Source: Verrucomicrobiota bacterium (lineage in GTDB: Bacteria; Verrucomicrobiota; Verrucomicrobiia; Limisphaerales; UBA9464). From it: 37,455 bases of DNA. The stretch's first letter is position 1. Each line of letters begins with the position of its first letter. Of this stretch, positions 12,601 to 37,215 are shown piece by piece. The DNA is taken from the NCBI GenBank assembly GCA_947454705.1, contig CANGKZ010000045.1, positions 1-37,455 of the forward strand, written 5' to 3'. Below the pieces are notes generated by a model, which worked only from the letters and a program-made list of their open reading frames with translations, did no database searches and had not been told where the DNA came from. The translations under genes and the position numbers were made by a program.

Positions 12601-12664
12601 TCCGTCTCCGTTTGAATTCATCGCTCCCCATTTGGTTCCAAGCGCGGTTGCCCTGCTTTTCCCC

Positions 12665-15600
12665 ATGATTCGTTCCCGCATTTCCCGCCTTCCGGCCGTT
12701 GCCGGCATCGCGTTCCTCGGCCTCTCCGCCGCCACGGCCTTCGCCGCTCAGCTTCCGGATGGGCGTATCGAATTTGGAACAACCGATGCCGCCGTGTCGG
12801 GCTCGGCGGTGATCGACGGGACCGCGGGGGTTCGCCTCGGCTCCGGTTCGGGAGTGGTTCGATGGAATTACAAGCCCACCCGCTGGGGGAAATACGATGT
12901 GGTGGCCGAAGTCCGCGCCGCGGGCGAGGTGTCGCTTGCGGTGGACGTGGCGGGGACGCCGGTGAGCTTCCGCGGAACGGTGCCCAAAAAGGGAACCGCA
13001 TCGACCGGCACCGTGACCGTGGGCCGCGTGTATGTGGCCAAGTCCGACCCATTTCAGGTGACTGTCTCCAGCGACGCTGCCGCTGCGGCGGGCTTCGAAT
13101 TGACCCGCCTCACGCTCGTGCCCGCGCCCGAGGGCGAGCCGGTGCGCGCGGGGGCGGACGGGGAGCTGGTGTTGAAGTCGTCGCAGGCCACCACTCACAG
13201 CGTCACCATGCGATACGAACCGGCCGCGGTGAAGAACTGCCTCGGCTACTGGGTGAATCCGGCCGACTGGGCCGACTGGCAATTCCCGGTGGCCCGTTCC
13301 GGCATGTACGACGTCGAAGTGTGGCAGGGCTGCGGCAAGGGGCAGGGCGGAAGCGATGTGGCGGTGGAGATCGACGAACGGAGGTTTGAGTTCGTGGTCG
13401 AGGAAACCGGCCACTTCCAGATTTTCCTGCCGCGTCGGGTCGGACGCGTGTGGCTTGAAGGCGGCGTGATGCATTCCCTCGCGATCAAACCGCAAAAGAA
13501 AAAGGCCGGCGCGGTGATGGACATCCGCCAGGTGCGGCTGGTCCCGGTGGCACCCGCTGCGGCTGCAGTGGAATCCGCTCCCAAGGGGCCTGCGACTTGG
13601 AAGACTGCCCGGCGCATTGTGGCGCTCGGCGACAGCATCACCTACGGCGGCGGATGGGTGGAGTGGCTGGAAACCTGGATGCGACTCCAGAATCCGGGTA
13701 CGACGGTGGAATGGATCAATGTGGGTCTGCCCAGCGAAACGGTTTCCGGTCTGTCGGAAGAAGGCCACGCGGGCGGCGCATTCCCGCGTCCTGACGCGCA
13801 TGAACGCCTCGATCGCGTTCTTGCCCAGACCCGGCCCGACCTCGTGCTGATCTGCTACGGGATGAATGACGGCATTTATTTTCCGTACGGCGAAGATCGC
13901 GCGGCCCGCTTCCAGGACGGCATGCGCCGACTCCACACCAAGGTCGAAGTCGCCGGCGCGCACGCCATTCATCTCACGTCGCCGATGTTTGATTCCGTGC
14001 CGCTCGCCGGACGGACCCTTCCCGCGGGACGCGACCGTTATCCGCAGCCCTACGAGGGCTACGACGAGGTTCTCACGCGCTATTCGCAGTGGTTGATTTC
14101 GCAACGCTCCGCCGGATGGGAGGTCATCGACGTGCACGGCCCGATGCGTCAGTACGTGGACGAACGACGGAAACGCGAAGCCGCCTTCACGCTCGCGGGC
14201 GACGGCGTGCATCCCAACGGACAGGGCCACTGGGTCATCGCGCGGGAAGTGCTCCGCCACTGGGGAGCGGACGCGGCGTTGGTGCTGGATGACACGCCCA
14301 ACACGCTGCTGAAGTGGCGTCCGGAAGCCCCGGCAGTCGCCGAGCGCGTGGCCCAGCGTCAGCGTATCACCAAAGATTCCTGGCTCACCGCCACCGGCCA
14401 CAAACGACCGGGCATGTCGCGCGGACTTCCGCTGGCCGAAGCTCGGGCGCAATCGGGACGCCTCAACGCCGCGATCCATGCGCTGACCGACGGACAGTTC
14501 CCCGGCAAACGGTCGCTGTGGTACGGATTCGAGCGCTTCGATTTTGAAGTCGATGGACATCCCGTCACTGTGGTGGCGCCCAAGCACGAAGCCCCCGGAC
14601 GTCCCTGGCTGTGGGAGGCGGAATTCTTCGGGCACAAGCCCAACCCCGACCTCGCGCTGCTCGGACGCGGCTTCCATGTGGTCTACCTCAGCGTGCCGAA
14701 CCTGCTCGGGTCGCCCACCGCGGTGGCCGATTGGAACGCCCTGCATCGCGAGCTGACCACGCGCTACGGGTTCTCGCCCAAACCCGCGATTTCAGGCCTC
14801 AGCCGCGGCGGTCTCTACGCCTACAACTGGGCCATCGCGAATCCCGACAAGGTGTCGTGCATCTACGGCGATGCGCCGGTGTGCGACTTCAAGAGCTGGC
14901 CCGGCGGCAAGGGCAAGGGCCCGGGCAGCGCCGGGGATTGGAAGCTGGTGCTGCAATTGCACGGATTCCGCGATGACGCCGAAGCCATGGCCTACCGGGG
15001 CAATCCGGTGGACAACCTTCAACCCCTGGCCCGCGCCAAGGTGCCGCTGCTGCACGTGTACGGCGATGCCGATGAAGTGGTGCCGTGGGACGAGAACACC
15101 GGTCTGCTCGCGACGCGCTACAAGCAGCTCGGCGGATCCATCACGCTGATCGCCAAGCCCGGCGTGAAGCATCATCCGCACGGGCTCGACGACTCGACCC
15201 CCATTGTGGATTTCATCTGGAAGCACGCCGCCGGACCCGCCGCGCAGGCGTGGCTGTTGGCCCGCGGCGGTGGACCCCAGGATGCCGCGGGCCGACCCCT
15301 TATCCGCAAGCTCGGCACGGTGGATGTGGACTTGGTGGAGACCACGCCGGTCGTGTTCCTGGGCCGACTCTGGCGCTTCGAATGGGTTCGACAGGGCGCC
15401 GGCCAGCAATACTGGGGCAATCAGCGGCAGACGAATTTCTTCCGGTTTCGCGATCCCGACACTGGTGAAGTCACGGCTCCGTTTGCCGACGGATGCGAAT
15501 TCGGCAGCGCCTTCGTGGAAGACGGCGCGGTGTACGTGACCGGCACGGTAAACCGCTCGCAGGTGGATGTGTTCGTGTCGCGCGACTTGAAGACCTGGCA

Positions 15601-16186
15601 GCGCCACACCGCCATCCCCGCCGGACGGTACGGAATCTACAACACCTCGATTTGCCGCACCGACAAGGACCACGTGCTGATGTTCGAGATCGACCGTCCC
15701 AAATCTGAGGCAGGGGTTCCGTTCACGGCGCGGTTCGCGCGATCGAAGGATTTGCTGCGCTGGAAGCTCACCTCGCCCGATTCGTCGTATTCCCGCGACC
15801 GCTACACGGCCCCGCACTGCCTGCGCTGGAAGGATGGGTGGTTCTACGACTTCTACCTGGAGGCGCACGAGGGCTACGAACTGCGCGTGGTGCGTTCCCG
15901 CGACCTGAAGCGCTGGGAAGCGAGTCCGCTGAATCCCGTTCTGCGGGCTTCACCGGAGGACAAGCTCATCGCGAACGGCCGGATTCCGGACGATCAACGG
16001 TCCCGGATTGCCAATGCGGTGAACCTGAACAACTCCGACCTCGACCTCTGCGAGCGCGACGGCCGGTTGGTGATGAACTATTCCTGGGGCAATCAGCAGG
16101 GCGTGGAGCATCTGGCGTCGGCAGTCTATGACGGCACGCTGGCGCAGTTCCTCGACGGCTGGTTCCCGAAGGCGGGCCGGCGGTGA
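12665..16186 (+). CDS. secreted three-module protein: SGNH esterase + alpha/beta hydrolase + beta-propeller
   Basis: A 1173-residue exported protein starting at ATG 12665, with the signal peptide ending near AATAFAA. Residues ~25-305 hold two beta-sandwich modules resembling DUF5077/carbohydrate-binding domains (WNYKPTRWGKYDVVAEV, then WVNPADWADWQFPVARSGMY). Residues ~315-540 are an SGNH hydrolase: GDSI with Ser324, GMND with Asn401, DGVHP with Asp513 and His516. Residues ~580-860 are an alpha/beta hydrolase: nucleophile elbow GLSRGG (Ser713), an acid in YGDADE (801 or 803) and a His in VKHHPHG (836-839). Residues ~880-1173 look like a GH43/GH32-type five-bladed propeller with repeated SRDLKTW/SKDLLRW/SRDLKRW motifs. 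It may deacylate and cleave an acylated glycan; the substrate is unknown. Confidence 0.88.
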   Translation: MIRSRISRLPAVAGIAFLGLSAATAFAAQLPDGRIEFGTTDAAVSGSAVIDGTAGVRLGSGSGVVRWNYKPTRWGKYDVVAEVRAAGEVSLAVDVAGTPVSFRGTVPKKGTASTGTVTVGRVYVAKSDPFQVTVSSDAAAAAGFELTRLTLVPAPEGEPVRAGADGELVLKSSQATTHSVTMRYEPAAVKNCLGYWVNPADWADWQFPVARSGMYDVEVWQGCGKGQGGSDVAVEIDERRFEFVVEETGHFQIFLPRRVGRVWLEGGVMHSLAIKPQKKKAGAVMDIRQVRLVPVAPAAAAVESAPKGPATWKTARRIVALGDSITYGGGWVEWLETWMRLQNPGTTVEWINVGLPSETVSGLSEEGHAGGAFPRPDAHERLDRVLAQTRPDLVLICYGMNDGIYFPYGEDRAARFQDGMRRLHTKVEVAGAHAIHLTSPMFDSVPLAGRTLPAGRDRYPQPYEGYDEVLTRYSQWLISQRSAGWEVIDVHGPMRQYVDERRKREAAFTLAGDGVHPNGQGHWVIAREVLRHWGADAALVLDDTPNTLLKWRPEAPAVAERVAQRQRITKDSWLTATGHKRPGMSRGLPLAEARAQSGRLNAAIHALTDGQFPGKRSLWYGFERFDFEVDGHPVTVVAPKHEAPGRPWLWEAEFFGHKPNPDLALLGRGFHVVYLSVPNLLGSPTAVADWNALHRELTTRYGFSPKPAISGLSRGGLYAYNWAIANPDKVSCIYGDAPVCDFKSWPGGKGKGPGSAGDWKLVLQLHGFRDDAEAMAYRGNPVDNLQPLARAKVPLLHVYGDADEVVPWDENTGLLATRYKQLGGSITLIAKPGVKHHPHGLDDSTPIVDFIWKHAAGPAAQAWLLARGGGPQDAAGRPLIRKLGTVDVDLVETTPVVFLGRLWRFEWVRQGAGQQYWGNQRQTNFFRFRDPDTGEVTAPFADGCEFGSAFVEDGAVYVTGTVNRSQVDVFVSRDLKTWQRHTAIPAGRYGIYNTSICRTDKDHVLMFEIDRPKSEAGVPFTARFARSKDLLRWKLTSPDSSYSRDRYTAPHCLRWKDGWFYDFYLEAHEGYELRVVRSRDLKRWEASPLNPVLRASPEDKLIANGRIPDDQRSRIANAVNLNNSDLDLCERDGRLVMNYSWGNQQGVEHLASAVYDGTLAQFLDGWFPKAGRR

Positions 16187-24110: not shown

Positions 24111-24440
24111 TCATGCGGCCTCCGCGATCAGATGATCCATTCGGGCGTGGATGCGTTCCTGCCGCTGCGCGCGCCGCCGGGCCAGCAGCAGTTTCTCGGC
24201 AAACAATTCAGGGAACACCAGCAGGGGGTGGGCTTCCAACCAGGCGAGCGAGGCCGCCTCATTCGCGGCGCGGCGAAGCGGCGCGAGGAGCGACGGACTG
24301 GCGGTCCGGGCCACGGCTTCCCGCAGGAGGCGGTTCTTCAGTCGTTCCAGATCACTTTCCGTGGTCCGGGTGAACGGTGCGGGCGGTTCCAGCGCCGGGC
24401 CAAAGCTGGCCAGCGGAGGTTCGAGTAACGTGCTATTCAT
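24111..24440 (-). CDS. small helical protein, unknown function
   Basis: From ATG 24440 (MNSTLLEPPLASFG) the protein has 109 residues; the frame is open further upstream to 24518, but that region is a terminator hairpin. After a Pro-rich N-terminus, the rest is almost wholly helical and rich in Leu, Ala, Arg and Glu (ESDLERLKNRLLREAVART, then AANEAASLAWLEAHPLLVFP, then LLLARRRAQRQERIHARMDH). I know no family. It may be a small regulatory or scaffold protein. The gene reads towards pgk but is separated by 585 bp containing an inverted repeat and a terminator, so it is not obviously in the same operon. Confidence 0.6.
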   Translation of the reverse strand: MNSTLLEPPLASFGPALEPPAPFTRTTESDLERLKNRLLREAVARTASPSLLAPLRRAANEAASLAWLEAHPLLVFPELFAEKLLLARRRAQRQERIHARMDHLIAEAA

Positions 24441-24702: not shown

Positions 24703-24874
24703 CTCGAACAGGACGGGCTTTTCTCATGAAGTGACCCCGGGTGTCAAGAGTCCGTCCCAATTCCTTTGGGCCTCCATCCGGGCACTTCCTCCCTATTCAA
24801 ACTCGATTTGGAGCCATCTGCCTCCCGGATATTGCTTCCGGGTTCCCGCTCCGCGAGGGTAGGGGCTCTTGACG

Positions 24875-26443
24875 ATGCGACGCTGCCTTGCCGCCCTTTT
24901 GATTTCCGCCGGTCTCTTGGGCCGGGGCGGATGGGTGGAGGCTGCCGGGGTTTCATCGACGGGCACCGCCGCCGTTCCAAAAAAGGGACAGCCCTCCCGG
25001 CCGGACCCCTCGTGGATCGAGGCCGGTCCGCTCTTCCACCAGTTCGGCCTCACCCTGGAGTCCGGCACCCGCGAAGAATTCCTCGGGCCGATCTTCAGCT
25101 CGCAAACCCAACCCGGCGAGGCGGGGAAGGGCAGCTCGACCCTCTGGACCATCGCCCCGTTCTTCTCCCGGTTTGAGGATCCGGAGATCGAACGCTCAGA
25201 ATTCGAATTCCTCTATCCGGCGGTCGGGTATTCCAAATTTGGTACGGAGTGGCGTCTGCAGATCGCCCAGTTCCTCAATTTCCACGGCGGCACGACGGTG
25301 GATGGCGAGGAAAAGCACCGTCGGAACCTGTTCCCGTTTTTCTTCTCCCAGAGCTCCACGCAGCACACCAACGACTACTGGTCGCTCCTTCCGTTTTACG
25401 GGCATTTCCGGAACCACCTGTTCCGGGACGAGGTCCGCTTCGTTGCCGCGCCGCTGTATGTCTGGTCGCGCAAGGGGTCGATGGAGACCGACAACTACCT
25501 GTTTCCCTTCATCCATTTCCGCCACGGCGGCGGGGTGAAGGGTTGGCAGGTGCTGCCGCTCGCGGGACACGAGACCAAGGCCGCAGTCACCCGCACCAAT
25601 GTCCTCACCGAGGAGCCCGAGGTGCTGCCCGGCTACGACAAGTGGTTCGCCGCCTTCCCGTTCTTCCATCACGAACGTCTCAATATTGGTACGACCAATG
25701 AGGAGACGCGGCGGATCCTGATCCCATTGTACAGCATTCAGCGCTCTCCGGCGCGGGACAACACCACGCTGCTCTGGCCGTTTTTCACCCACACGGTGGA
25801 TCGCGAGAACCGCTTTGTGGAATGGGGGCTTCCGTTCCCGTTCGTCGGATGGGCCCGCGGCGAGGGCAAGCACGCCAACCGGCTGTGGCCACTGTGGGGC
25901 AAGGCGACCAACGAGGTGATGCAGTCCGACTTCCTCCTCTGGCCGCTCTACACGCACCGGCACATCAAGACTCCGGAGATCGAGCGCGAGCGCACCCGGA
26001 TTCTTTGGTTCCCCTATTCCGACACGAAGTTGGTCAATCCCGTCACCGGCGATTACCGGCGCAAGTGCGACCTCTGGCCGCTGTTCAGTTCGAGCCATGA
26101 TCTCGACGGACGCGAACGCTTCCAGTTCCTGGCCATCAGCGAGCCGATCATCCCGGGGAACAAGTCGATCGACCGCAACTGGTCCCCGCTGTGGTCCCTG
26201 TATCGCGCCGAGAAGAATCCCAAGACCAAGCATTCGAGCCAGTCGTTGCTTTGGAATCTGTGGCGGCGCGACGCGCGGGAGACCGAGATCCGGAATTCGT
26301 TCTTCTTCGGTTTGATCCGCACCCGACGTGAGCCCGGCACCGAGGGGCTGCACTGGCGGTTTTTGTGGCGTTCTTTTCCTCCGGCGAAACCGGTGACGAA
26401 TCCAACCGCTGTCGCGAAACCGGCCACACCGGGCAAACCATGA
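24875..26443 (+). CDS. secreted LWP-repeat protein next to the Mla operon
   Basis: A 522-residue exported protein. ATG 24875 follows a purine-rich GAGGGTAGGGG, and the signal peptide is MRRCLAALLISAGLLGRGGW ending near VEAAG. From residue ~90 to ~460 it repeats a short aromatic motif (L/F)-W/x-P-(L/F)-(F/Y/W): LFPFFF, LLPFYGH, AAPLYVW, LFPFIHF, VLPLAGH, FPFFHH, LIPLYS, LWPFFTH, LPFPFV, LWPLWG, LWPLYTH, LWFPYS, LWPLFSS, PLWSLY, LWNLW. Centres lie 17-23 residues apart, with two gaps of double length. A regular strand-turn-strand solenoid or outer-membrane barrel is likely. The permease gene starts within about 50-120 bp, so this may be an envelope partner of the lipid transporter. The function is not established. 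Confidence 0.85.
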   Translation: MRRCLAALLISAGLLGRGGWVEAAGVSSTGTAAVPKKGQPSRPDPSWIEAGPLFHQFGLTLESGTREEFLGPIFSSQTQPGEAGKGSSTLWTIAPFFSRFEDPEIERSEFEFLYPAVGYSKFGTEWRLQIAQFLNFHGGTTVDGEEKHRRNLFPFFFSQSSTQHTNDYWSLLPFYGHFRNHLFRDEVRFVAAPLYVWSRKGSMETDNYLFPFIHFRHGGGVKGWQVLPLAGHETKAAVTRTNVLTEEPEVLPGYDKWFAAFPFFHHERLNIGTTNEETRRILIPLYSIQRSPARDNTTLLWPFFTHTVDRENRFVEWGLPFPFVGWARGEGKHANRLWPLWGKATNEVMQSDFLLWPLYTHRHIKTPEIERERTRILWFPYSDTKLVNPVTGDYRRKCDLWPLFSSSHDLDGRERFQFLAISEPIIPGNKSIDRNWSPLWSLYRAEKNPKTKHSSQSLLWNLWRRDARETEIRNSFFFGLIRTRREPGTEGLHWRFLWRSFPPAKPVTNPTAVAKPATPGKP

Positions 26444-26491
26444 ACGCTCTGAATCGTAACGACGGATGCGCGACGGGCTGCCCCTCCCGCT

Positions 26492-27319
26492 TTGACATGG
26501 CGACGGCTCGCGGCACTCTGGCGGTCGATCGGGATCGCGGTCGGACTCTCCTTTCCTGACATGTTCCAGAACCTGGGTGAAATGCTGATGCTGCTGGGCG
26601 CAACGCTGCGCGCGCTCCCGCGTGTTTGGCGCGACCGGCGCAAGGTGGGCGAGCAGTTGTTCGATATCGGCAACGCCAGCCTCTTCATGGCCTGCACTCT
26701 TTCGCTGTTCATCGGCGGCGTGCTCGCGTTGCAGACCGGTCCCGTTTTGTCCGAACGCGGTCTCGGTTCCTCCCTCGGCGGCCTCGTTGCGCTGGGTCTT
26801 TGCAAGGAGCTCGCGCCCGTGATGATGGCCGTTCTCATCGCCGGACGCATCGGATCCGCCATGGCCGCCGAGCTCGGATCCATGCGGGTGTACCAGGAGA
26901 TCGATGCGCTCCGGACGCTCAACATCAACCCGATCCACTACCTTGTGGTGCCCCGGGTGATCGCCATCAGCATCGCGCTCCCTTGCCTGGTGGTGTTTGC
27001 CAATCTTACTGGATGGCTCGGCGGCGCGGTGGTCGCCAGCATGAATGACCGCATCGGAGTTTCGTGGAACGCCTACTTCGGAAATCTCCGCCAGGTGGTG
27101 GAGTTCTCCGATCTGGCCAACGGCATGATCAAGTCGTTCGTCTTCGCCGTGGTCATCGGCGTGGTGTCCTGCCACCAGGGCCTCACCACTCTGGGTGGTC
27201 CGCGCGGCGTGGGACGCAGCGTGACCAAGGCCGTGGTCAACTCGATCGTCTTCATCCTGGTCCTCGACTATGTCCTCACCCGCCTGCTTCTGCCGCTCGA
27301 CAAGGGCTGGCGCTTTTGA
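26492..27319 (+). CDS. mlaE: MlaE-family ABC transporter permease
   Basis: The inner-membrane permease of an MCE-type lipid transporter (E. coli MlaE, 260 residues). The product is 275 residues from a TTG at 26492, or 252 from ATG 26561 (MFQNLGEMLML); the start is uncertain. Family features: QLFDIGNASLFMACTLSLFIGG, GLGSSLGGLVALGLCKELAP, the conserved AGRIGSAMAAELGSMRVYQEIDAL coupling region, then several further membrane spans. Upstream is the LWP-repeat gene. The MlaF ATPase gene begins 3 bp after its stop, so the two are surely co-transcribed. In E. coli the system carries phospholipids between membranes. Confidence 0.92.
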   Translation: MTWRRLAALWRSIGIAVGLSFPDMFQNLGEMLMLLGATLRALPRVWRDRRKVGEQLFDIGNASLFMACTLSLFIGGVLALQTGPVLSERGLGSSLGGLVALGLCKELAPVMMAVLIAGRIGSAMAAELGSMRVYQEIDALRTLNINPIHYLVVPRVIAISIALPCLVVFANLTGWLGGAVVASMNDRIGVSWNAYFGNLRQVVEFSDLANGMIKSFVFAVVIGVVSCHQGLTTLGGPRGVGRSVTKAVVNSIVFILVLDYVLTRLLLPLDKGWRF

Positions 27320-27322
27320 CCG

Positions 27323-28099
27323 ATGACGATGCCCCCGAACTCATCCAACGGCATTCCGGTTTCCATCCGGTCGCTTCGAAAATCCTTCGGACACCAGGAA
27401 GTGTTGAAGGGACTCGAATTCGAGATCCGCAGCGGCGAGGTGTTCGTCCTCATGGGACCGAGCGGCTCCGGCAAGTCGGTGTTCCTGCGGCATCTGATCG
27501 GCCTTGAATCGCCGGATTCTGGCGAGATCCGCATTGGCAATGAACTCGCCACCGCCGAGGGCGTGGGCGACCGGTTCCGTCTGGCCATGGTGTTCCAGAG
27601 TGGCGGATTGCTGAACTCGCTCACCGTGGCGGAGAATGTCGGTCTGATGCTCACCGAGCATCGGCTCAAGTCGCCGGACGAAATTCAGAAGATCGTGGCC
27701 GATCGACTAGCCCTGGTGCGGCTCGGACCCGAGGTCGCCGGCAAGCTCCCCAGTGAACTCTCTGGCGGCATGCGCAAACGCGTCGCCATCGCCCGCGCGC
27801 TGGTTTCCGATCCGCAGCTCATTCTTTACGACGAACCCACCAGCGAGCTCGATCCCATGGTGGCGCTCACCATTGGACGCGAGATCCTCAAGCTCAACCG
27901 TCGTACCGGCGCGACCTCGGTTGTGGTCACCCACGATCGGGACTTGGCCTTCGGCATCGCGGACCGCATCGCCTTTCTGGTGAATGGCCATCTGGTTGCG
28001 ATTGGCACCCCCGATGAAATCCGGGCCATGCGCCACCCGGTGCTGGAAGAATTCCTGGCCGCTGACTTCAAACGATCGACCGACGACGACTCCCGCTGA
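27323..28099 (+). CDS. mlaF: MlaF-family ABC transporter ATP-binding protein
   Basis: The cytoplasmic ATPase, 258 residues, driving the MlaE permease. Walker A GPSGSGKS (45-52), Q-loop Gln92 (VFQSGG), signature LSGGM (146-150), Walker B LILYDEPTSELDP with Asp170/Glu171, and switch His204 (VVTHDRD). The sequence after the signature (RKRVAIARALVSDP) is typical of the Mla/Mkl subgroup. ATG 27323 lies 3 bp after mlaE; mlaD starts 36 bp after its stop. All catalytic residues are present. Confidence 0.95.
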   Translation: MTMPPNSSNGIPVSIRSLRKSFGHQEVLKGLEFEIRSGEVFVLMGPSGSGKSVFLRHLIGLESPDSGEIRIGNELATAEGVGDRFRLAMVFQSGGLLNSLTVAENVGLMLTEHRLKSPDEIQKIVADRLALVRLGPEVAGKLPSELSGGMRKRVAIARALVSDPQLILYDEPTSELDPMVALTIGREILKLNRRTGATSVVVTHDRDLAFGIADRIAFLVNGHLVAIGTPDEIRAMRHPVLEEFLAADFKRSTDDDSR

Positions 28100-28135
28100 G
28101 TGCCGAGTCCTGATTTTCCTCCCTTTCTTTTCGCC

Positions 28136-29131
28136 ATGAAAAACACCCTCGAAACCCGCCTTGGCCTGTTCTTCGCCTTAGTGGTCATCGCCGCGTTCAT
28201 GCTGTTCGAGCTGATCGGCAGCGGTGCGTTGTTCTCGCGCGGCAAGGTGCTGCGCGCGCAGTTCGCCACGGTTCGCGACCTGAAGTCGGGCGACCCGGTG
28301 AAGCTCGCCGGCGTGACCATCGGCCGGGTCAAAACCATTCACTCCCCCAAGGCCGGCAAGGTGGAGGTGGATTTCTCCGTCGATCCCGATGCCGACGTCC
28401 GCACCGATAGTGTGGCCTCCGTGCTCTTCGCCGGGTTGATGGGACAGAATTTCGTTTCACTCAGCTTTGGTACGGACACCGCCCCGCTCGCCGATGCCAA
28501 GACGCTGCTGAAGTCCAAGGATCAGCCCGACCTCGCGGCGATCATGACCAAGCTCGATGGTGCGGCCGACGGCGTGCAGAACATGACCAAGAGCTTCACC
28601 GGCGAGGAGTTCAACAAGCTGCTCGGACCCTTCACCGACTTCCTCAAGCAGAACCAGCCCCGCCTGGTGGCGATCCTGGGTAACCTGCAGAACATCTCCA
28701 CCTCGATCGCCGAGGGACAGGGCACCGTCGGCAAGTTGATCAAGGAAGATGCGCTGTATCAGTCCGCACTCTCCACCGTGACCAACCTGAACCAGACCGT
28801 GTCGGATGTCCGTCCCCTCGCCGAGGATGCCCGGGCTGCCGTGGCCGAGGCGCGCAGCATGGTTTCCAATATGAACAAGGGGGAGGGCACGGTTGGAAAA
28901 CTGCTGAAGGACGAGAAGCTTTATACCGAGACCACCACCGCGATGACCCAGCTCAAGGAGATCTTCCAAAAGATCAACGGAGGCCAGGGAACCGTGGGTC
29001 AATTGGTCAACGACGCCACTTTTCTTAAAAATGTGAAACTCACGCTTCAGAAAGTCGACAAGGCGACGGAAGGCCTTGAAGACACGGGTCCGCTCACTGT
29101 GCTCAGCTCAGTGATTGGGAATCTTTTCTGA
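28136..29131 (+). CDS. mlaD: MlaD-family MCE substrate-binding protein
   Basis: The product is 331 residues from ATG 28136 (MKNTLETRLGLFF); an in-frame GTG at 28100 would add a non-conserved tail. One membrane anchor (residues 9-27) is followed by the MCE domain (about 38-112: VRDLKSGDPVKLAGVTIGRV ... VLFAGLMGQNFVSLSFG). After it come a coiled, Gln/Asn/Thr-rich helix and three copies of GxGTVG(K/Q)L (GQGTVGKLI, GEGTVGKLL, GQGTVGQLV). E. coli MlaD is 183 residues, so this has a long C-terminal extension of the kind seen in Bacteroidetes- and Verrucomicrobia-like MCE proteins. It presents lipids to MlaE-F in the periplasm. Confidence 0.93.
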   Translation: MKNTLETRLGLFFALVVIAAFMLFELIGSGALFSRGKVLRAQFATVRDLKSGDPVKLAGVTIGRVKTIHSPKAGKVEVDFSVDPDADVRTDSVASVLFAGLMGQNFVSLSFGTDTAPLADAKTLLKSKDQPDLAAIMTKLDGAADGVQNMTKSFTGEEFNKLLGPFTDFLKQNQPRLVAILGNLQNISTSIAEGQGTVGKLIKEDALYQSALSTVTNLNQTVSDVRPLAEDARAAVAEARSMVSNMNKGEGTVGKLLKDEKLYTETTTAMTQLKEIFQKINGGQGTVGQLVNDATFLKNVKLTLQKVDKATEGLEDTGPLTVLSSVIGNLF

Positions 29132-29230
29132 TACGTTTTGGGCCGGTGCGGCGTCCCGTTTCGCAACCGAAACTGGACTTGCAGTCATCGATGCGAATAG
29201 TACGCGGAAAGGATTTAAACCCAACCCGCC

Positions 29231-29872
29231 ATGGTTCGCTTCATCCTCAGGGGACTCACACATCCGCTCGAACACGAGCTTCACAGCGGAGTCATCACCA
29301 TCGGTCGCAATCCCTCGAACGAGTTTATCATCTCCGATTCGAGCGTCTCCAGTGTTCATGCCGAGGTCACCGTGGATCCGGAAGGGCCCACGGTTCAGGT
29401 GAAGGATCTTCAATCGACGAACGGCACCTTCATCGACAGCAGCCCGATTGAAACTGCGGTTCTTCGTCCCGGGCAAACCCTGCAGTTGGGCGGCGTCGAA
29501 TTGCGGCTGGATTGCGAAGAGTTTGAGATTCGCATTCCCACTGCGGCGGTCACGCCTGTCGCCGCTCAGCCTGCTGGAGTAGTGGAGGTGTTGGAGGACG
29601 GCACGACGGCCTGTTCGCGAAATCCTTCCCTGCGCGCCACGCACGAAGCCGAGCTGGGCTGCATGGCGGTGGTCAAGTGTCCTGCGGTCTTTAACCTCGC
29701 CTCGCTGCGTGTTGTTAAGTTGTCCGGCGGCAAGGCCGGCGTGCTGCTCTTCTGTCCCGACTGCAACACCCGCTGCCGGCCCATTCCTGGCGTCTCCGAC
29801 CAGGCCTCCAAAAAGAAGGGCCTCCTCGCCCGCTTCACGCAGACCGTCCACCTCGGGTGGAAGAAGAAGTAG
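29231..29872 (+). CDS. FHA-domain protein with C-terminal Cys cluster
   Basis: The product is 213 residues. The forkhead-associated domain (1-90) binds phosphothreonine peptides: Gly25-Arg26 (TIGRNPSNEF), Ser40/His43 (VSSVHAE) and Asn64-Gly65 (STNGTFID) are the recognition residues. The C-terminal half has Cys and His at TACSRNPSLRATHEAELGCM, then KCPAVF, and CPDCNTRC (about 175-182), which looks like a zinc-binding module. It starts 99 bp after mlaD on the same strand; a shared transcript is possible but not certain. A Ser/Thr kinase partner is not in the window. It may link signalling to the envelope unit, which is inference. Confidence 0.85.
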   Translation: MVRFILRGLTHPLEHELHSGVITIGRNPSNEFIISDSSVSSVHAEVTVDPEGPTVQVKDLQSTNGTFIDSSPIETAVLRPGQTLQLGGVELRLDCEEFEIRIPTAAVTPVAAQPAGVVEVLEDGTTACSRNPSLRATHEAELGCMAVVKCPAVFNLASLRVVKLSGGKAGVLLFCPDCNTRCRPIPGVSDQASKKKGLLARFTQTVHLGWKKK

Positions 29873-30187: not shown

Positions 30188-31552
30188 TCACGGCTTCGCC
30201 GCAGCGGACACCAGCTTCCAAAGCTTGCCCTTGCCCGGGTTCAAGCCCGTGGTGCCGGCGGTCATCAGATAAAGTTCTCCGTCACGGTCTTCGCTCAGCG
30301 CGCAGAAATAGCCCGGCATTCCCGTGAAATCGGCGAGGGGCAGTCGCTCCAGCGTCCATCGGGTTTGTCCCTTCGGTCCGGGGCGTCCGGCCAGAAGCGT
30401 TCCCTGCGGCAGACCCCAGTTCCGGGTCCAGTCGGCAAACACATAGGTGCCGTTCAGCGCGGGCATGGACCGGCCGCGGTACACGTAGCCGCCGACGATG
30501 CTCACGCCCACCGTGTCGGGACGCGACTTCGCGCCCGGATGGCGGTACTCCAGAATCGGATCCAACAAGGTTTCTCCCCGGCTGCTCTTCAACGCGCCGT
30601 CTCCGGCAGGAATGGCGTTCGGTGCCTTGGGGTTGAACGGATGAAATCCTTCGCGGAGGTTCCATCCATAGTTCCCGCCCTTGCGGATGATGTTCACTTC
30701 CTCAAACAGATTTTGCCCCACGTCGGCGGCGAACAATTCGTGACGCCCCTTCCGATCAAAACTGATTCCCCACGCATTGCGCAGGCCGAGCGCCCAGATC
30801 TCCGGAAGCGCGCCCGGGGTTTTCACGAAGGGATTGTCCTTCGGAATTCCGTGGCCCGAGGGCGTGGAGATGTCGAGACGCAGGATCTTGCCCATCAGCG
30901 TGTCGAGCCGCTGAGAGTTGCCGCCTTCCGGACGTTTGCCTTCGTCGTTCGCCGCGCCGCCGTCGCCCACCGCCATGTACAAATAGCCATCCGGCCCGAA
31001 CGCGAGCCGGGCTCCGTTGTGATTGGCAAAGGGTTTGTCGATCTCCAGCCGGACGATCTCCGAAGCGAGGTCCAATTTTGGTACTGCTCCGTCCGCGAGT
31101 TTGAATTCGCTCAGTCGGAGGGTGTTGTCGAATCCCTCCGGGGCTCCCGCACGCAGGGGGGCGCTGTAGGTGACGAAGATCCGGCGATTCTTCGTGAAGT
31201 TTGGATGTAGAACGAGGGAAAGCAGTCCGCGCTCATCGAAGGCACCGGCGTTGAGCTTGCTCATCCGGGACCGCAGGTCGCCCACCACATCCTCGGTCAA
31301 GGCGCCCTCGGCATTCAGCCAGCGGATCCGGCCGTTTTGCTCGATCAGGAGCGATCCGCCCTTGGGCAGCGGAGTGACTCCCAGCGGTTGATCGAGTCCC
31401 TCGGCGACAAGCTTGAGCGTGACGGCGGGGCCGGTGCCGATGGCGGGAGCTTCCGCAGGAGCTGCGGTTTCGGCAAAAGCCTCGAAGGCTCCAGCCGATG
31501 CAAAGAAAGCCACGAGGCCGGTTGAAAGCACGGTTTGAGGATTCGGGATCAT
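30188..31552 (-). CDS. PQQ-type soluble sugar dehydrogenase (GSDH family), copy 2
   Basis: A 454-residue exported protein with a signal peptide (MIPNPQTVLSTGLVAFFASA...). It matches the glucose/sorbosone dehydrogenase six-bladed propeller family: AFDERGLLSLVLHPNF, NHNGARLAFGPDGYLYMAVG (His of the PQQ site, then GDGG), GLRNAWGISFD, ADVGQNLFEEVNII, KGGNYGWNLREG. Members oxidise aldoses with PQQ in the periplasm, but many homologues have no proven activity. It lies 118 bp downstream of a paralogue of similar length on the same strand, so this is a tandem duplication. No PQQ synthesis genes are in the window. Confidence 0.88.
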   Translation of the reverse strand: MIPNPQTVLSTGLVAFFASAGAFEAFAETAAPAEAPAIGTGPAVTLKLVAEGLDQPLGVTPLPKGGSLLIEQNGRIRWLNAEGALTEDVVGDLRSRMSKLNAGAFDERGLLSLVLHPNFTKNRRIFVTYSAPLRAGAPEGFDNTLRLSEFKLADGAVPKLDLASEIVRLEIDKPFANHNGARLAFGPDGYLYMAVGDGGAANDEGKRPEGGNSQRLDTLMGKILRLDISTPSGHGIPKDNPFVKTPGALPEIWALGLRNAWGISFDRKGRHELFAADVGQNLFEEVNIIRKGGNYGWNLREGFHPFNPKAPNAIPAGDGALKSSRGETLLDPILEYRHPGAKSRPDTVGVSIVGGYVYRGRSMPALNGTYVFADWTRNWGLPQGTLLAGRPGPKGQTRWTLERLPLADFTGMPGYFCALSEDRDGELYLMTAGTTGLNPGKGKLWKLVSAAAKP

Positions 31553-31597
31553 GGACGGGGAATAGTTGCTTCAATTACTGCGGGCGCAACAAGGCAA

Positions 31598-31623
31598 GTT
31601 CCCGGCCGAAGAAGGCCGGGAAC
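31598..31623 (-). terminator. hairpin between the two sugar dehydrogenase genes
   Basis: GTTCCCGGCC (31598-31607) and GGCCGGGAAC (31614-31623) pair perfectly around GAAGAA. On the minus strand it sits 48 nt after the stop of the first gene, followed by a poor T-tract (TTGCCTTGTTGC). It is a likely weak terminator or mRNA-stabilising hairpin between copies. Confidence 0.55.
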
Positions 31624-31670
31624 GGAGAGGGTAGAAACCGCTGACTTCGAACCGAAGGACCGCGCGCAGA

Positions 31671-33047
31671 TCAAGGATTGGCGACGACGGGTTCCGGAGG
31701 CGCGAGCTTCCAGACTTTTCCGCGTCCCGGAGTCAGGGTGGTGGATCCGTTCGTCAGCACGTAGATCTCGCCGTCGGCGTCCTGACCGAAGGCCGCCACG
31801 CAGCCGAAGGCCTTGCCGGAACCGGTCACGCGGAGCGGTTCGACGGCCCATCGACCAGTGCCCGACGCAGGACGGCGCGCCACAAAGAGGCGGCCCTGCG
31901 GGGTGCCCTGCGTGCCGGTCCAGTCACCAAAGACATAGTGTCCCACGAGCTCCGGCATGGCCTTGCCGCGATAGACGTATCCGCCGGTGATGCAGATGCC
32001 GAGGGCTTCGGAATCGCCTCTCCAGCCGCTGGCGTTCTTGTAGGCGGCCACCGGATCGATGAGCGCTTCGCCGCGCAATCCGCGCTCCGGCTTCGACTCG
32101 GCGGGGAGTTCCGGATGTTCGCGGTTCATGCCGTCGAACCCTTCGCGCAGGGGCCAGCCGTAGTTGCCGCCCTTCTTGATGATGTTCACTTCCTCCCAGC
32201 GCATCTGGCCGACGTCGCCGACGAACAGTTCATGGCTGCCACCGCGATCAAAGGTCATGGCCCAGGGGTTCCGGATTCCATAGGCGTAAATCTCCGGACG
32301 CCCGGCCTTGCCGTCGGCGAAGGGATTGTCCTTCGGAATGCGGTAGGCGGTTCCGTGTGTTGAGTCGGCCCCGGAGACGTCGATGCGGAGAATCTTCGCC
32401 AGCAGCACCGAGGTGTTCTGGCCGTTGCCTTCGGGGGCGTGTCCGTTGCCGATGTCGCAACCCTTCGGTCCGCCGCCGTCACCCACCGACACGTACAGGA
32501 AGCCATCCGGACCAAACGCGATCCGCCCGCCGTTGTGGTTGAAGTACGGCTTGTCCACTTCAAGCACGATGCGTTCGGAGGCGGGATCGATGTGCAGCGG
32601 TTCCGCGGCGGGGAGGGTGAACTCACTCACGCGCAGGGTGCAGTCGTAGTCCTGCGGAGCGCTGGCGCGGCGCGGTGCGGTGTAGGAGGCGAAAATGCGG
32701 CGGTTCTTGGCGAAGTCCGGATGCAGGGCGAGGCAGAGAAGTCCGCGCTCATCGAACGCGTTGTGATTGATGGCGGAGAGTTTCGACGCCAAGTCCACCA
32801 CCGGAGCTTCGGTCAGCTTGCCGTCGCGGCCGATGAGGCGGATGGAACCGACCTGATCTGCAACAAGGGCGCGTCCATCGGGCAGCGCATTGTAGCTCAG
32901 CGGTTCCACAAGACCGCTGGCGACGAGCTTGAGCGAGATTCGGGTGGGTTCCGCTGCGGAGAGCGATCCGGTCAGCGAGAGGGCGGTGGCCGCAGTGAGT
33001 GCCGAGGCAAGAGAGAGCAGGGACTTCATCGGGTGAGTGGGAATCAT
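31671..33047 (-). CDS. PQQ-type soluble sugar dehydrogenase (GSDH family), copy 1
   Basis: A 458-residue exported protein. Its start is either ATG 33047 or ATG 33029 (MKSLLSLASALTAATALSL), the latter giving a more compact signal peptide ending near LSAAE. Family segments are all present: ALVADQVGSIRLIG, AFDERGLLCLALHPDF, NHNGGRIAFGPDGFLYVSVG, GIRNPWAMTFD, FVGDVGQMRWEEVNII, KGGNYGWPLREG. It is upstream of the paralogue at 30188-31552 and clearly homologous to it along the whole length. This copy adds CDIGNGHAPEGNGQNTS in one loop. It is predicted to be a periplasmic aldose dehydrogenase; the substrate is unknown. Confidence 0.88.
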   Translation of the reverse strand: MIPTHPMKSLLSLASALTAATALSLTGSLSAAEPTRISLKLVASGLVEPLSYNALPDGRALVADQVGSIRLIGRDGKLTEAPVVDLASKLSAINHNAFDERGLLCLALHPDFAKNRRIFASYTAPRRASAPQDYDCTLRVSEFTLPAAEPLHIDPASERIVLEVDKPYFNHNGGRIAFGPDGFLYVSVGDGGGPKGCDIGNGHAPEGNGQNTSVLLAKILRIDVSGADSTHGTAYRIPKDNPFADGKAGRPEIYAYGIRNPWAMTFDRGGSHELFVGDVGQMRWEEVNIIKKGGNYGWPLREGFDGMNREHPELPAESKPERGLRGEALIDPVAAYKNASGWRGDSEALGICITGGYVYRGKAMPELVGHYVFGDWTGTQGTPQGRLFVARRPASGTGRWAVEPLRVTGSGKAFGCVAAFGQDADGEIYVLTNGSTTLTPGRGKVWKLAPPEPVVANP

Positions 33048-33578: not shown

Positions 33579-34457
33579 TCAAGCGCGCTTCTGGCGGCGG
33601 CGCCAGTGCATCCACTGACCGGCGATCACCAGGCCCACGGCACCGATCGCGGCATTGGTCGCGGGCTCCGGAACCACGTCGGCATAGGTTGTACCCACTT
33701 TGATTTCATCGACGCTGAATCCGAGATTCCCCGCGATCGACAACGCGGTGACCGTCCCCACGTTGAAACTGCGGGTGGCGTTTGCCACGCCTTCCGCGGA
33801 GCCGACACCGGGATTGATGAACAGGCTGAAGGTATCCGAGGCCGATCCTGCGCCGAACACGGCCTTCAGCACGAGGAGCACTGGGGTGTTGACGGTGGCG
33901 GTGGTGGAGCTGGCGGTCTGGGCGGTTCCCACTTGGTCGATCAGGTAGGCACCGGAGTTCGAGTTAAGGCCGAATCCCGCGCTGGCTGCCGATCCGTTCA
34001 GGCGGAGTTCCGCGCTCTTGGTGCCCACCGAGGCTTGGGGACGGAGCACGAAGCTGAAGTAGGTGGTGCCGGCCGAGATTCCCAAGGAGGACGACAGGGT
34101 GCGGCTGAGCGGCGTTGTCAGGGAGTTGGCGTTCATGTTTGCCCGATTTCCCGTGGTATTGTAGCCGGGCAGGCTTCCGGATCCCACCGTGGACCCGGCC
34201 GAACCGCCGGACCACGCGCCTGAAAATCCAAACGAGCCTCCGCCAGTTTGCGTGTTGATCTGGGATCCAATCGTGTAGTTGAACGGTTCGTAAGCGCTGA
34301 GTGCCGCATGCGCCTGCGGACTAGAAATCAGGGCGATGACTGTGACCATGGCCCCCATGGCCCCGTGTCGTGCCGATGCTCGAACGGCGCACAACGGCCT
34401 GGTGAGAATGCGGTTGTCTGCTGGATTCGGGACTCGGATCTGTTCGTTCGATTGCAT
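33579..34457 (-). CDS. PEP-CTERM sorting-domain protein
   Basis: The product is 292 residues from ATG 34457; ATG 34358 (MGAMVTVIALISSPQAHA) would give a shorter, more usual signal peptide. The mature part is Gly/Ser/Thr/Asn-rich and predicted to be a beta-sandwich, starting LSAYEPFNYTIGSQINTQTG. The C-terminus has the PEP-CTERM signal: VVPEPATN, a hydrophobic span (AAIGAVGLVIAGQWMHW) and a basic end (RRRQKRA). Such proteins are cleaved by an exosortase and are linked to exopolysaccharide or biofilm matrix. No exosortase gene is in the window. Confidence 0.87.
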   Translation of the reverse strand: MQSNEQIRVPNPADNRILTRPLCAVRASARHGAMGAMVTVIALISSPQAHAALSAYEPFNYTIGSQINTQTGGGSFGFSGAWSGGSAGSTVGSGSLPGYNTTGNRANMNANSLTTPLSRTLSSSLGISAGTTYFSFVLRPQASVGTKSAELRLNGSAASAGFGLNSNSGAYLIDQVGTAQTASSTTATVNTPVLLVLKAVFGAGSASDTFSLFINPGVGSAEGVANATRSFNVGTVTALSIAGNLGFSVDEIKVGTTYADVVPEPATNAAIGAVGLVIAGQWMHWRRRQKRA

Positions 34458-34845
34458 GGGTTCTTTCCCGCTGTAGGAGGGGCATCTGAGTCGCTTGTTC
34501 CCTCTCTCAACGTAAATTTACTATCGGATGAGGGATCAATCCTCGACAGCGGGGGAACTCCCAAAGTGCTGTACGCGAGCGAGAAATGAAGAATCAGGGC
34601 CCCCCCCTCTGGTGATAAGAGGAGCGCGTAGGGCCGCCAAGGTGCCCCCCGGGGAGCAGCGCCTCGTCTTCGGGGGTACGAATCCGCGTCTTCTGCAGTG
34701 CACCCGCCGAATTCCGGAGCCACAGTCGCTCCTTCCGACTCACCCCGATGCCCCGGGTCGCTGGATGCGCGTTTCATTTGCGGTTCGAAGCGCGCAGGAA
34801 TTCGCGATGCCGATGGCGAATGCGACGGGTGGTCTCTTTGCTCGA
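34458..34845. other. divergent intergenic region with no clear feature
   Basis: A 388-bp spacer between the divergent PEP-CTERM and beta-helix genes. The beta-helix frame is open through part of it (from 34528), but the protein sequence there has no family features. I see a run of Cs near 34600, a short CCTCT/AGAGG hairpin beside it, and no convincing promoter. Both genes must be transcribed from this interval. Confidence 0.5.
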
Positions 34846-37215
34846 ATGAAAACCCTCCATCTGCTGGTGATCGGTCTCGTCACCCTGGTTGCGCGCGCCG
34901 ACTATCATGTGTCGCCCTCGGGAAATGACGCCAACCCGGGCACGCTCTCCAAACCGTTCGCCACGATTCATCGCGCCCAGCAGGAGGTTCGGAAAAAGCC
35001 CGGAACGGTTTATCTCCGCGAAGGCACCCACTACTTGAAGGAGCCCCTCCTCTTCACCGCCGCGGATTCCGGAACCGCCCGCCGGCCGGTGGTGTATCAA
35101 TCCTGGAAAAATGAGAAGCCGGTCATCAGCGGCGGCGTGAAGCTGGAAGGTCTCGATTGGAAACCGTACCGCGACGGCATCCAGGTCACACCGGTGCCCG
35201 ACGACCTCGACACCGAGGAAATCTTCGTCAACGGCGTCCGACAGATCTTCGCGCGCTATCCCAATTTTGATCCCTCGGCGCAGTACTTCGATGGATTCGC
35301 CGCCGACGCAATCTCCACCACTCGTTCCGCGCGTTGGGCCGATCCCACCGGGGGATACTTCCACGCCATGCATCCCGCGCTGTGGGGTGACTTCACCTGG
35401 CGCATCACGGGCAAGGCCCCCAACGGCGAAGTCACCCGCGAAGGCGGCTGGCAGAACAACCGCGGGGGTGCGGTGCACCAGACGATCCGGTTCGTTGAAA
35501 ACATCTTCGAGGAGCTCGACGCACCCGGGGAATGGTTTCTCGATCGCAAACAGCACCGGCTCTATTTCCATCCTCCGGCGGGACTCGACCTCGCCAAGGC
35601 GACCTTCGAGGCCACCCGCCTCCGGACGCTGGTGGAGTTCCGCGGCACCGAGACGTCGCCGGTCCGGTTCGTCACCCTCAAGGGGATTACTTTTCGGCAC
35701 GCCGCGCGCACGGTGATGGACACACGCGAGCCGCTGTTGCGTTCCGACTGGGCCATCTATCGCGGCGGCGCGCTGCGGTTCGAAGGCGCGGAATCCTGCA
35801 CCGTGGACTCCTGCTTCCTGGATCAACTCGGTGGCAACGGAATCTTCGTAAACCATTACAACCGTAATCTAACCATTCGCGGATGCCAGATCTCCCGCGC
35901 CGGCGCGAGCGGCATCTGCTTTGTCGGCGATCCTAAAGCAGCGCGCAGTCCGTTGTTTCACTACGACCAGGTGAATCGATTGGAGGACATCGACCGGACC
36001 CCGGGCCCGAAATCATCCAATTATCCCGCGGATTGCTGCGTGGAGGATTGCCTCATCACCCTCACCGGACGCGTGGAGAAGCAGACCGCCGGAATTCTCA
36101 TCGACCTCTCACGACGCATCACGGTCAGCCACTGCTCGATCTACGACATGCCGCGCGCCGGGATTAACATTGGGGATGGCTGCTGGGGCGGACACGTCAT
36201 CGAGTATTGCGACCTCTTCGACACGGTGAAAGAAACCGGGGACCACGGATCGTTCAACTCCTGGGGACGCGACCGCTACTGGCGCCCCTCGATTTCCGAA
36301 GTCAACGCGTGGGTGCGTCAGGTGCCCGAACTGCCGCGCCTCGATGCCGTCGAGCCGGTCATCCTGCGCAACAACCGCTGGCGTTGCGACCACGGCTGGG
36401 ACATCGACCTCGATGACGGGTCCTCCTTCTTCGTGATCACCAACAACCTGTGTCTCCGCGGTGGCATCAAATGTCGCGAGGGATTTGGTCGCGTGGTGGA
36501 AAACAACATCATGGTCGGCTCCGGCTTCCATCCCCACGTTTGGTACGCCAACAGCGGGGACATCTTTCGTCGCAACATCGTCTGGACCGATTACCGTCCC
36601 GCCCTCATGCCTCCGCCGCCGTGGGGTCTCGACCTTGATCGCAACCTGCTGCATCGCGAAAGAGCCCCCGCTGCCCCGGCCGACGTGTTGCAGCGCAGCA
36701 GCGGACGGGATGCCCGCTCGTTGAGTGGTGACGCGCAATTCATCGCCCCCGGGCGTGGGGATTACCGCGTGAAGCCCGGCTCCCCGGCGCTGGCGCTGGG
36801 GTTCATCAACTTCCCCATGGATCAATTCGGTGTCACCAGTCCCTCGCTCCGGAAGCTCGCGAGAACCCCCGTGCTTCCGGGCCAGGCAGTCGCGACCACC
36901 GACAAAAAATCGGTCCGGGAGACCGCCGCACGCACCTGGTTGGGTGCGAAGGTTCGCAGCATTGCCGATGAAGGGGAAATGTCCGCGTTCGGACTTCCCG
37001 GAGTGGCTGGAGTGCTCCTGTTGGAAGTGCCGCCGCGATCGACCCTCGCGCGCGCCGGCCTGCGGGCCAACGACGTGATCCTGTCGGTCAATGGATCGCG
37101 CATTTCCGATACCCGGGCGTTGATTCGCGAGGTACCTGCCATCGCCGGATTCCAATCGGTGACCCTGCGCTACTCGCGTCAGCAGAAGGAATCGGAAGTC
37201 ACCGTCGGCGAATAG
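34846..37215 (+). CDS. secreted right-handed beta-helix enzyme with C-terminal PDZ domain
   Basis: The product is 789 residues from ATG 34846, chosen because it starts the signal peptide (MKTLHLLVIGLVTLVARA). The mature part opens with YHVSPSGNDANPGTLSKPFA and IHRAQQEVRKKPGTVYLREG, the start of DUF1565/parallel beta-helix proteins. The central part (residues ~250-560) has repeated beta-helix rungs with Cys-rich turns (CTVDSCFLDQLGGNGIFV, CQISRAGASGICFVGD, CCVEDCLITLTG). Its architecture resembles GH141-like glycosidases, but I cannot fix active-site residues. Residues ~705-789 form a PDZ domain (RSTLARAGLRANDVILSVNG), which may hold a peptide or a partner. A secreted polysaccharide-acting enzyme is probable. 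Confidence 0.85.
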   Translation: MKTLHLLVIGLVTLVARADYHVSPSGNDANPGTLSKPFATIHRAQQEVRKKPGTVYLREGTHYLKEPLLFTAADSGTARRPVVYQSWKNEKPVISGGVKLEGLDWKPYRDGIQVTPVPDDLDTEEIFVNGVRQIFARYPNFDPSAQYFDGFAADAISTTRSARWADPTGGYFHAMHPALWGDFTWRITGKAPNGEVTREGGWQNNRGGAVHQTIRFVENIFEELDAPGEWFLDRKQHRLYFHPPAGLDLAKATFEATRLRTLVEFRGTETSPVRFVTLKGITFRHAARTVMDTREPLLRSDWAIYRGGALRFEGAESCTVDSCFLDQLGGNGIFVNHYNRNLTIRGCQISRAGASGICFVGDPKAARSPLFHYDQVNRLEDIDRTPGPKSSNYPADCCVEDCLITLTGRVEKQTAGILIDLSRRITVSHCSIYDMPRAGINIGDGCWGGHVIEYCDLFDTVKETGDHGSFNSWGRDRYWRPSISEVNAWVRQVPELPRLDAVEPVILRNNRWRCDHGWDIDLDDGSSFFVITNNLCLRGGIKCREGFGRVVENNIMVGSGFHPHVWYANSGDIFRRNIVWTDYRPALMPPPPWGLDLDRNLLHRERAPAAPADVLQRSSGRDARSLSGDAQFIAPGRGDYRVKPGSPALALGFINFPMDQFGVTSPSLRKLARTPVLPGQAVATTDKKSVRETAARTWLGAKVRSIADEGEMSAFGLPGVAGVLLLEVPPRSTLARAGLRANDVILSVNGSRISDTRALIREVPAIAGFQSVTLRYSRQQKESEVTVGE

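Follow-up and report, generated by a model that had tools for sequence, protein, structure and literature searches.

In chloroplasts, the MCE transporter TGD1-2-3 is accompanied by a separate β-barrel protein of the outer envelope, TGD4, and bridge-like lipid transfer proteins such as LptA, AsmA/TamB and VPS13 are built from a long β-sheet with a hydrophobic stripe. Among bacterial systems, the one described from Escherichia coli is composed of MlaFEDB-MlaC-MlaA-OmpC/F, and for Veillonella parvula a minimal MlaEFD system with a β-barrel fused to MlaD was proposed in 2023 (PMC10665443). According to that study, MlaD proteins of PVC bacteria lack the fused barrel completely, which raises for its authors the question whether non-homologous proteins replace the missing components (PMC10665443). 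What connects MCE transporters to the outer membrane where neither MlaC nor a fused barrel is present is the question addressed here, using a locus from a Verrucomicrobiota bacterium (assembly GCA_947454705.1), the genome of which is a 5.45-Mb draft in 80 contigs. The window, that is, the whole stretch of DNA analyzed, comprises the 37,455 nucleotides of contig CANGKZ010000045.1 read on the forward strand. At positions 24875-29872 it contains a gene for a protein with repeated Leu-Trp-Pro-like motifs, here called the LWP protein, followed by mlaE, mlaF, mlaD and a gene for a forkhead-associated (FHA) domain protein. We consider it probable that the LWP protein belongs, as a dedicated fourth component, to a variant of the Mla (MCE) system for lipid transport, and that it is a β-sheet protein located at or in the outer membrane.

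Linkage of the LWP gene to mlaE, mlaF and mlaD

The LWP gene (24875-26443, plus strand; 522 aa) has an ATG start with an in-frame TTG at 24869 and is present in a single copy in the genome. Downstream of it, on this strand too, lie genes for the permease MlaE (26492-27319; Pfam PF02405, 1.9e-72; TIGR00056 above cut-off), the ATPase MlaF (27323-28099; PF00005, ABC_tran, 3.6e-31), the long MCE protein MlaD (28100-29131; 343 aa; PF02470, 4.5e-16, residues 48-124) and the FHA-domain protein (29231-29872; PF00498, 2.2e-16). The gaps between these genes are, in order, 48, 3, 0 and 99 nt, in agreement with the operon-like spacing and the 3 nt between permease and ATPase genes given in a preliminary description of the locus. 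Between positions 24400 and 30300 we found no sigma-70-like promoter, and the four terminator-like sites, one of them at 26525-26544 at the start of mlaE, were not above chance (6.4 in shuffled sequences). The genome contains three MlaE genes, and the LWP-linked locus is one mla locus type among several.

The preliminary description had joined the LWP protein to mlaE, mlaF and mlaD, and had named homologues that usually do not adjoin these genes as the observation that would speak against it. Linkage was counted at loci with enough contig, and five loci of the own order cut by contig ends were set aside. The opposite of that observation was found: at 92 of the 108 loci with room, mlaE directly follows the LWP gene, and an explanation by chance neighbours was rejected. 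Adjacency was seen at 41/55 loci of the own order, 13/13 of a second order of the class and 38/40 of other classes (51/53 outside the own order); second-order LWP proteins are 21-26% identical to that of the window, and those of other classes 19-28%. The distance from the LWP stop codon to mlaE is at most 150 nt at 77 of the 92 adjacent loci, and at 91 of them mlaE is followed by mlaF and then mlaD, so that permease, ATPase and MCE protein, the MlaEFD core of an Mla/MCE lipid transporter, are encoded together.

The FHA protein, which the preliminary description had counted as part of the same unit, did not hold this place. Its gene was found by tblastn at 9 of 54 LWP loci, all in the own family, while at many others the contig ends early or the mla genes lie elsewhere; we therefore rejected it as a component of the core unit and regard it as a neighbour kept within the family only. 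Nor was a conserved fifth gene retained, as the neighbourhood clusters consisted of shadow frames of mlaEFD, genes of single groups and one cross-group cluster, none of which has a constant position from group to group. The one cluster shared between groups looks by eye like an ornithine carbamoyltransferase; it lies upstream at 14 of 40 other-class loci and occurs at 7 of 13 second-order loci, mostly far downstream and on the other strand.

A special C-terminus of the LWP-linked MlaD proteins

MlaD consists of a transmembrane segment, the MCE domain and a long helical-looking part (transmembrane segment and helix were judged by eye), and it ends in a hydrophobic peptide of 14 residues (29087-29128, plus strand) which a comparison of MlaD ends showed to be conserved in LWP-type MlaDs. 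The last residue is Phe in 79 and Leu in 10 of 91 LWP-linked MlaDs. Of the two that deviate, L203 is a frame that lies at the edge of its contig, and L060 is a shifted frame, as judged by its sequence and a stop. The peptide is GP..(V/L)xG..LF-like in the own class and SP.VTFSSIFFGAF-like in other classes. By comparison, none of 12 MlaDs from other mla loci ends in Phe and one ends in Leu. This control is small. Ten of its loci, including one in the own genome, belong to the own class, and their MlaDs end in Arg, Lys or Pro after polar or charged tails; the remaining two are from other classes, one with a Pro end and one (L193) with a Leu end on a different tail. Fisher's test gave 3e-12 for the linked MlaD ends against the first 10 non-LWP ends only, a value that ignores relatedness.

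The pairing is also kept where the genes are apart. In the own genome and its relatives, the LWP-type MlaD ends in Phe at 30/30 loci, including 8/8 genomes in which the LWP gene lies elsewhere. An LWP-type MlaD was identified in 57 of these 58 genomes, and the sole genome without it (G035) also lacks the LWP protein; two genomes (G007 and G042) have the LWP-type MlaD without a detected LWP protein, and both are incomplete assemblies (86% and 57%). As far as sequence comparison goes, the MlaD tail that matches the LWP protein is an addition to what the preliminary description had observed.

Distribution of the LWP protein and of other Mla parts

The genome-by-genome survey covered the own phylum; the genomes are samples of a collection in which related genomes are counted separately, E-values are per genome, and the counts for relatives include the own genome. 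LWP proteins were found in 55/58 genomes of the close group (own genome and relatives) and in 241/293 genomes of the own order. Across the class, 34/141 genomes were positive, all of them from the own order (21/23) or the second order (13). Phylum-wide the count was 184/387, in which some weak matches (E 1e-3 to 1e-9) may be due to chance, and another class of the phylum (that of G425) had the protein in 265/288 genomes. No LWP relative was found on viral contigs or on plasmids.

MlaC (PF05494) was detected in none of 24 genomes, with E. coli and Caulobacter controls matched, and MlaA (PF04333) in seven of the 24, where six of the seven matches fall in frames of 599-748 aa. Neither MlaA nor MlaC was seen among the genes of the unit and the scanned neighbours, as the preliminary description had stated for the adjoining genes. 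One MlaA domain is encoded elsewhere in the own genome, on contig C24 (L336:3501-5501), in a 666-aa protein the second half of which gives a weak α/β-hydrolase match.

Sequence and repeats of the LWP protein

The first 24 residues of the LWP protein (24875-24946, plus strand) form a probable Sec-type signal peptide with a hydrophobic N-terminus, as read by eye from the translation, and no lipobox was seen. This reading supports the export proposed in the preliminary description; the homologues have hydrophobic leaders too, but their starts were picked for that feature. Also borne out was its view that the protein belongs to no characterized family. Searches of the window protein against Pfam, NCBIfam and the Protein Data Bank (PDB), of 50 family members against Pfam, and of two family profiles against the PDB gave no match, and family members gave only weak NCBIfam matches below cut-off. 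Among these, NF047486 (LA_1737 family C-terminal domain) matches residues 405-458, the last strands, of one LWP protein (L223) with 15.1 bits and E 0.016, far under the family cut-off of 60 bits, and two A3 alignment members reach E 0.36 at best. On this basis the LA_1737 family, which bears a Leptospira name, is a possible remote relative outside the phylum and is treated as a lead only; the literature listed under that name appears to be unrelated.

The preliminary description had counted about 15 copies of the motif (L/F)WP(L/F)(F/Y/W). A regular repeat is clearly present, but the count was too high: the strict motif occurs four times (5000 shuffles: mean 0.01, maximum 1) and a relaxed form, hydrophobic-hydrophobic-Pro-hydrophobic-aromatic, 11 times (mean 0.51, maximum 5). 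With degenerate units included there are ~23 repeats, spaced by 17-23 residues with one gap of 34. In an alignment of 191 homologues, Pro reaches a weighted frequency of 60% or more at 18 positions, and of 99-100% at several of these. Positions -3 to +2 around the Pro are mostly hydrophobic or aromatic, so that such residues stand on both faces of a strand, and the positions beyond are mostly polar or charged. Most LWP proteins continue past the last strand with a short tail; among 217 proteins, the final residue is Pro in 35%, frequently preceded by acidic residues, and Phe in 5%. As a side observation, 8% of the MlaF proteins of the same loci have a terminal Pro, and MlaE proteins do not have Pro among their most frequent end residues. 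Taken as a whole, the earlier observation on this locus holds in substance, apart from the number of repeats and the membership of the FHA protein.

Strand topology

Mean-field coevolution was run on 191 and then on 217 sequences (effective number 192), with partial sequences and columns with more than 30% gaps left out. Antiparallel ladders were found to join consecutive repeats, for example 212-226, 118-129, 229-260 and 442-458. The mean ladder score was 4.50 for the 22 pairs of neighbouring repeats, compared with 2.22 (standard deviation (SD) 0.76) for other pairs; 14 of the 22 lie more than 2 SD over the non-neighbours and 10 over the non-neighbour maximum, and the weakest, 460-479, scores 1.6. 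Across neighbouring strands Pro faces Pro, mostly within two residues. Since the ladders are antiparallel and run between consecutive repeats, with Pro opposite Pro, we interpret every repeat as a single strand within a meander. The LWP protein is read accordingly as a predicted antiparallel meander of 22-24 strands with one repeat per strand; in the window protein, conservation and coevolution place ~23 strands, most of them with a conserved Pro in the middle, between 25016 and 26374 on the plus strand. An antiparallel meander of neighbouring strands, which coevolution indicates here, is also expected of an outer-membrane β-barrel protein. The preliminary description had suggested that the aromatic repeat could form a barrel or solenoid; a large β-sheet agrees with the coevolution data, but the signal for closure into a barrel is ambiguous, as the pairing of first and last strand is raised without being unique.

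Role of the LWP protein

We are nearly sure that the LWP protein is a functional partner of the LWP-linked MlaEFD, and it probably acts at the outer-membrane end of the system, as a lipid port or as the site on which the MlaD tube lands. In terms of sequence, this proposal is supported by the four-gene unit, the dedicated pairing, the β-meander topology, the special C-terminus of MlaD and the lack of a detectable MlaC. We infer export of the LWP protein (signal peptide by eye), its location in the outer membrane, docking of the MlaD tail and contact with lipid. In the proposed mechanism, MlaE and MlaF would form the inner-membrane pump, and the long MCE protein MlaD, a hexamer by analogy, would extend outward as a tube. 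The conserved hydrophobic peptide at the C-terminus of MlaD would dock on the LWP protein, which, as a 22-24-stranded β-sheet protein at or in the outer membrane, would take over the hand-over of lipid. It would thereby be the counterpart of MlaA-porin and MlaC of E. coli, or of the barrel proposed as fused to MlaD in Veillonella. A more far-reaching version, which we put forward tentatively and with more doubt than trust, is a phylum-wide four-component Mla in which a new fold, a 22-24-stranded sheet with a proline ladder and a hydrophobic band on both faces, may form the port for lipid in the outer membrane, held by the C-terminal peptides of six MlaD chains.

Several observations weigh against placing the LWP protein in the outer membrane as a dedicated component. 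The first-last strand pair (52-497, antiparallel) scores 3.85, ~2 SD over other pairs, and several non-neighbour pairs score equally. The spacing between W460 and G479 is 18-21 residues in 84/84 sequences of the own order and 34-44 residues, which means one strand more, in 121/133 others (46/49 of the second order and 75/84 of other classes). A closed antiparallel barrel should not tolerate such variation in strand number among orthologues, which is located near the C-terminus; a simple barrel of this kind is thereby disfavoured, and room is left for an open sheet. Both faces of the sheet are hydrophobic in the middle, unlike a porin, and the asymmetry between even and odd loop lengths sought as a sign of outer-membrane topology was not found (p 0.44). 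In favour of the outer membrane, the last strand resembles the C-terminal strand of outer-membrane proteins (OMPs), and a few members end there in Phe (e.g., L229, L262 and L198); the tails and the rarity of terminal Phe described above speak against such an end. AlphaFold2 gave no usable model for the window protein and two homologues (predicted local distance difference test (pLDDT) 29.8). At the level of genomes, the LWP gene does not stand beside mlaE at 14 of 55 loci of the own order (12 of the 14 in the own family), the second order, sampled alone, has the protein in only 48/132 genomes, and MlaE is present in 132/141 genomes of the class, so that many genomes have mla loci without an LWP protein.

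The strand data also bear on a different arrangement, which we hold to be rather unlikely, in which the LWP protein is an open periplasmic ribbon of β-sheet, soluble or tethered to a membrane, along which lipid would slide as it does in LptA, AsmA/TamB or VPS13-type bridges. The row of prolines would then be the bottom of a groove to which MlaD hands over lipid, and no crossing of the outer membrane would be needed. Variable strand number, loops without even/odd asymmetry and the lack of a clear closure signal all agree with such a ribbon, as does the register of Pro against Pro, which makes the row of motifs run almost at right angles to the strands, without a systematic alternating shift. 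On the other hand, some six central residues give the sheet a hydrophobic character on both faces, which would be unusual for a soluble groove whose outside is polar; nor was a membrane anchor or a lipobox seen in the window protein, and the C-terminal strand is OMP-like.

It is improbable that the LWP protein is an accessory outside the lipid path, such as a protein of the outer membrane or cell wall region that offers the MlaD tube a docking platform, helps to assemble it or stabilizes it. The dedicated pairing with MlaD does not by itself show lipid handling and would suit such a role, but the size of the sheet and the hydrophobic band conserved across the phylum exceed what an adaptor needs. 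That the LWP protein is an unrelated secreted or surface protein beside mlaE, mlaF and mlaD by chance is close to refuted: the loci of the own order where it stands elsewhere would fit, but outside that order the gene order is kept at 19-28% identity, the special MlaD tail accompanies the LWP protein even when unlinked, and both are jointly absent from one lineage (G035).

Other genes in the window

Upstream of the LWP gene, positions 12632-16186 encode a protein of 1184 aa in which a GDSL-type lipase is joined to a region with weak similarity to prolyl oligopeptidases and a part with weak similarity to GH43. Downstream, two adjacent tandem genes of the glucose/sorbosone dehydrogenase type (GSDH) are located on the minus strand (30188-33047), followed by a gene (33579-34457) for a protein that by eye resembles PEP-CTERM sorting proteins, with VPEP near the C-terminus and no Pfam match. 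The last of these genes (34528-37215) encodes a right-handed β-helix protein with a C-terminal PDZ domain.

Comparison with known systems

With the Mla system of E. coli the present locus shares MlaE, MlaF and MlaD as pump and MCE protein. It differs by the long MlaD with its special tail, by the LWP gene beside mlaE, by the absence of MlaC from all 24 genomes and by the occurrence of the MlaA domain in seven of these only, where the own copy is located on another contig inside the 666-aa protein. As an analogy of architecture, the arrangement may be likened to TGD1-2-3 and TGD4 in that an MCE transporter would work with a separate β protein. The long sheet with a hydrophobic stripe likewise invites a working analogy to LptA, AsmA/TamB and VPS13; when compared by sequence, with no match to a solved structure, the LWP protein is unlike these in having a Pro in the middle of most strands and two hydrophobic faces. 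A search of the open-access literature, which leaves out most subscription papers, brought up no account of a protein of this kind.

The Veillonella parvula system, as described in that study (PMC10665443), resembles the present one in having mlaEFD, a long MlaD, no MlaC and β-structure at the far end. It differs in that the β-rich part is here predicted to be a separate protein of 22-24 strands, and MlaD, with 343 aa in the own genome, has a short conserved hydrophobic end. The LWP protein fits the vacancy left by the barrel missing from PVC MlaDs (PMC10665443), and it is a concrete, conserved candidate for the missing outer end, with a predicted contact to the MlaD tail. It would add an undescribed family of envelope proteins, present in nearly all genomes of at least one order and of a further class in this phylum. 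If the more far-reaching version of the proposal is true, this would be a third architecture for crossing the envelope, besides MlaA/MlaC and the barrel fused to MlaD.

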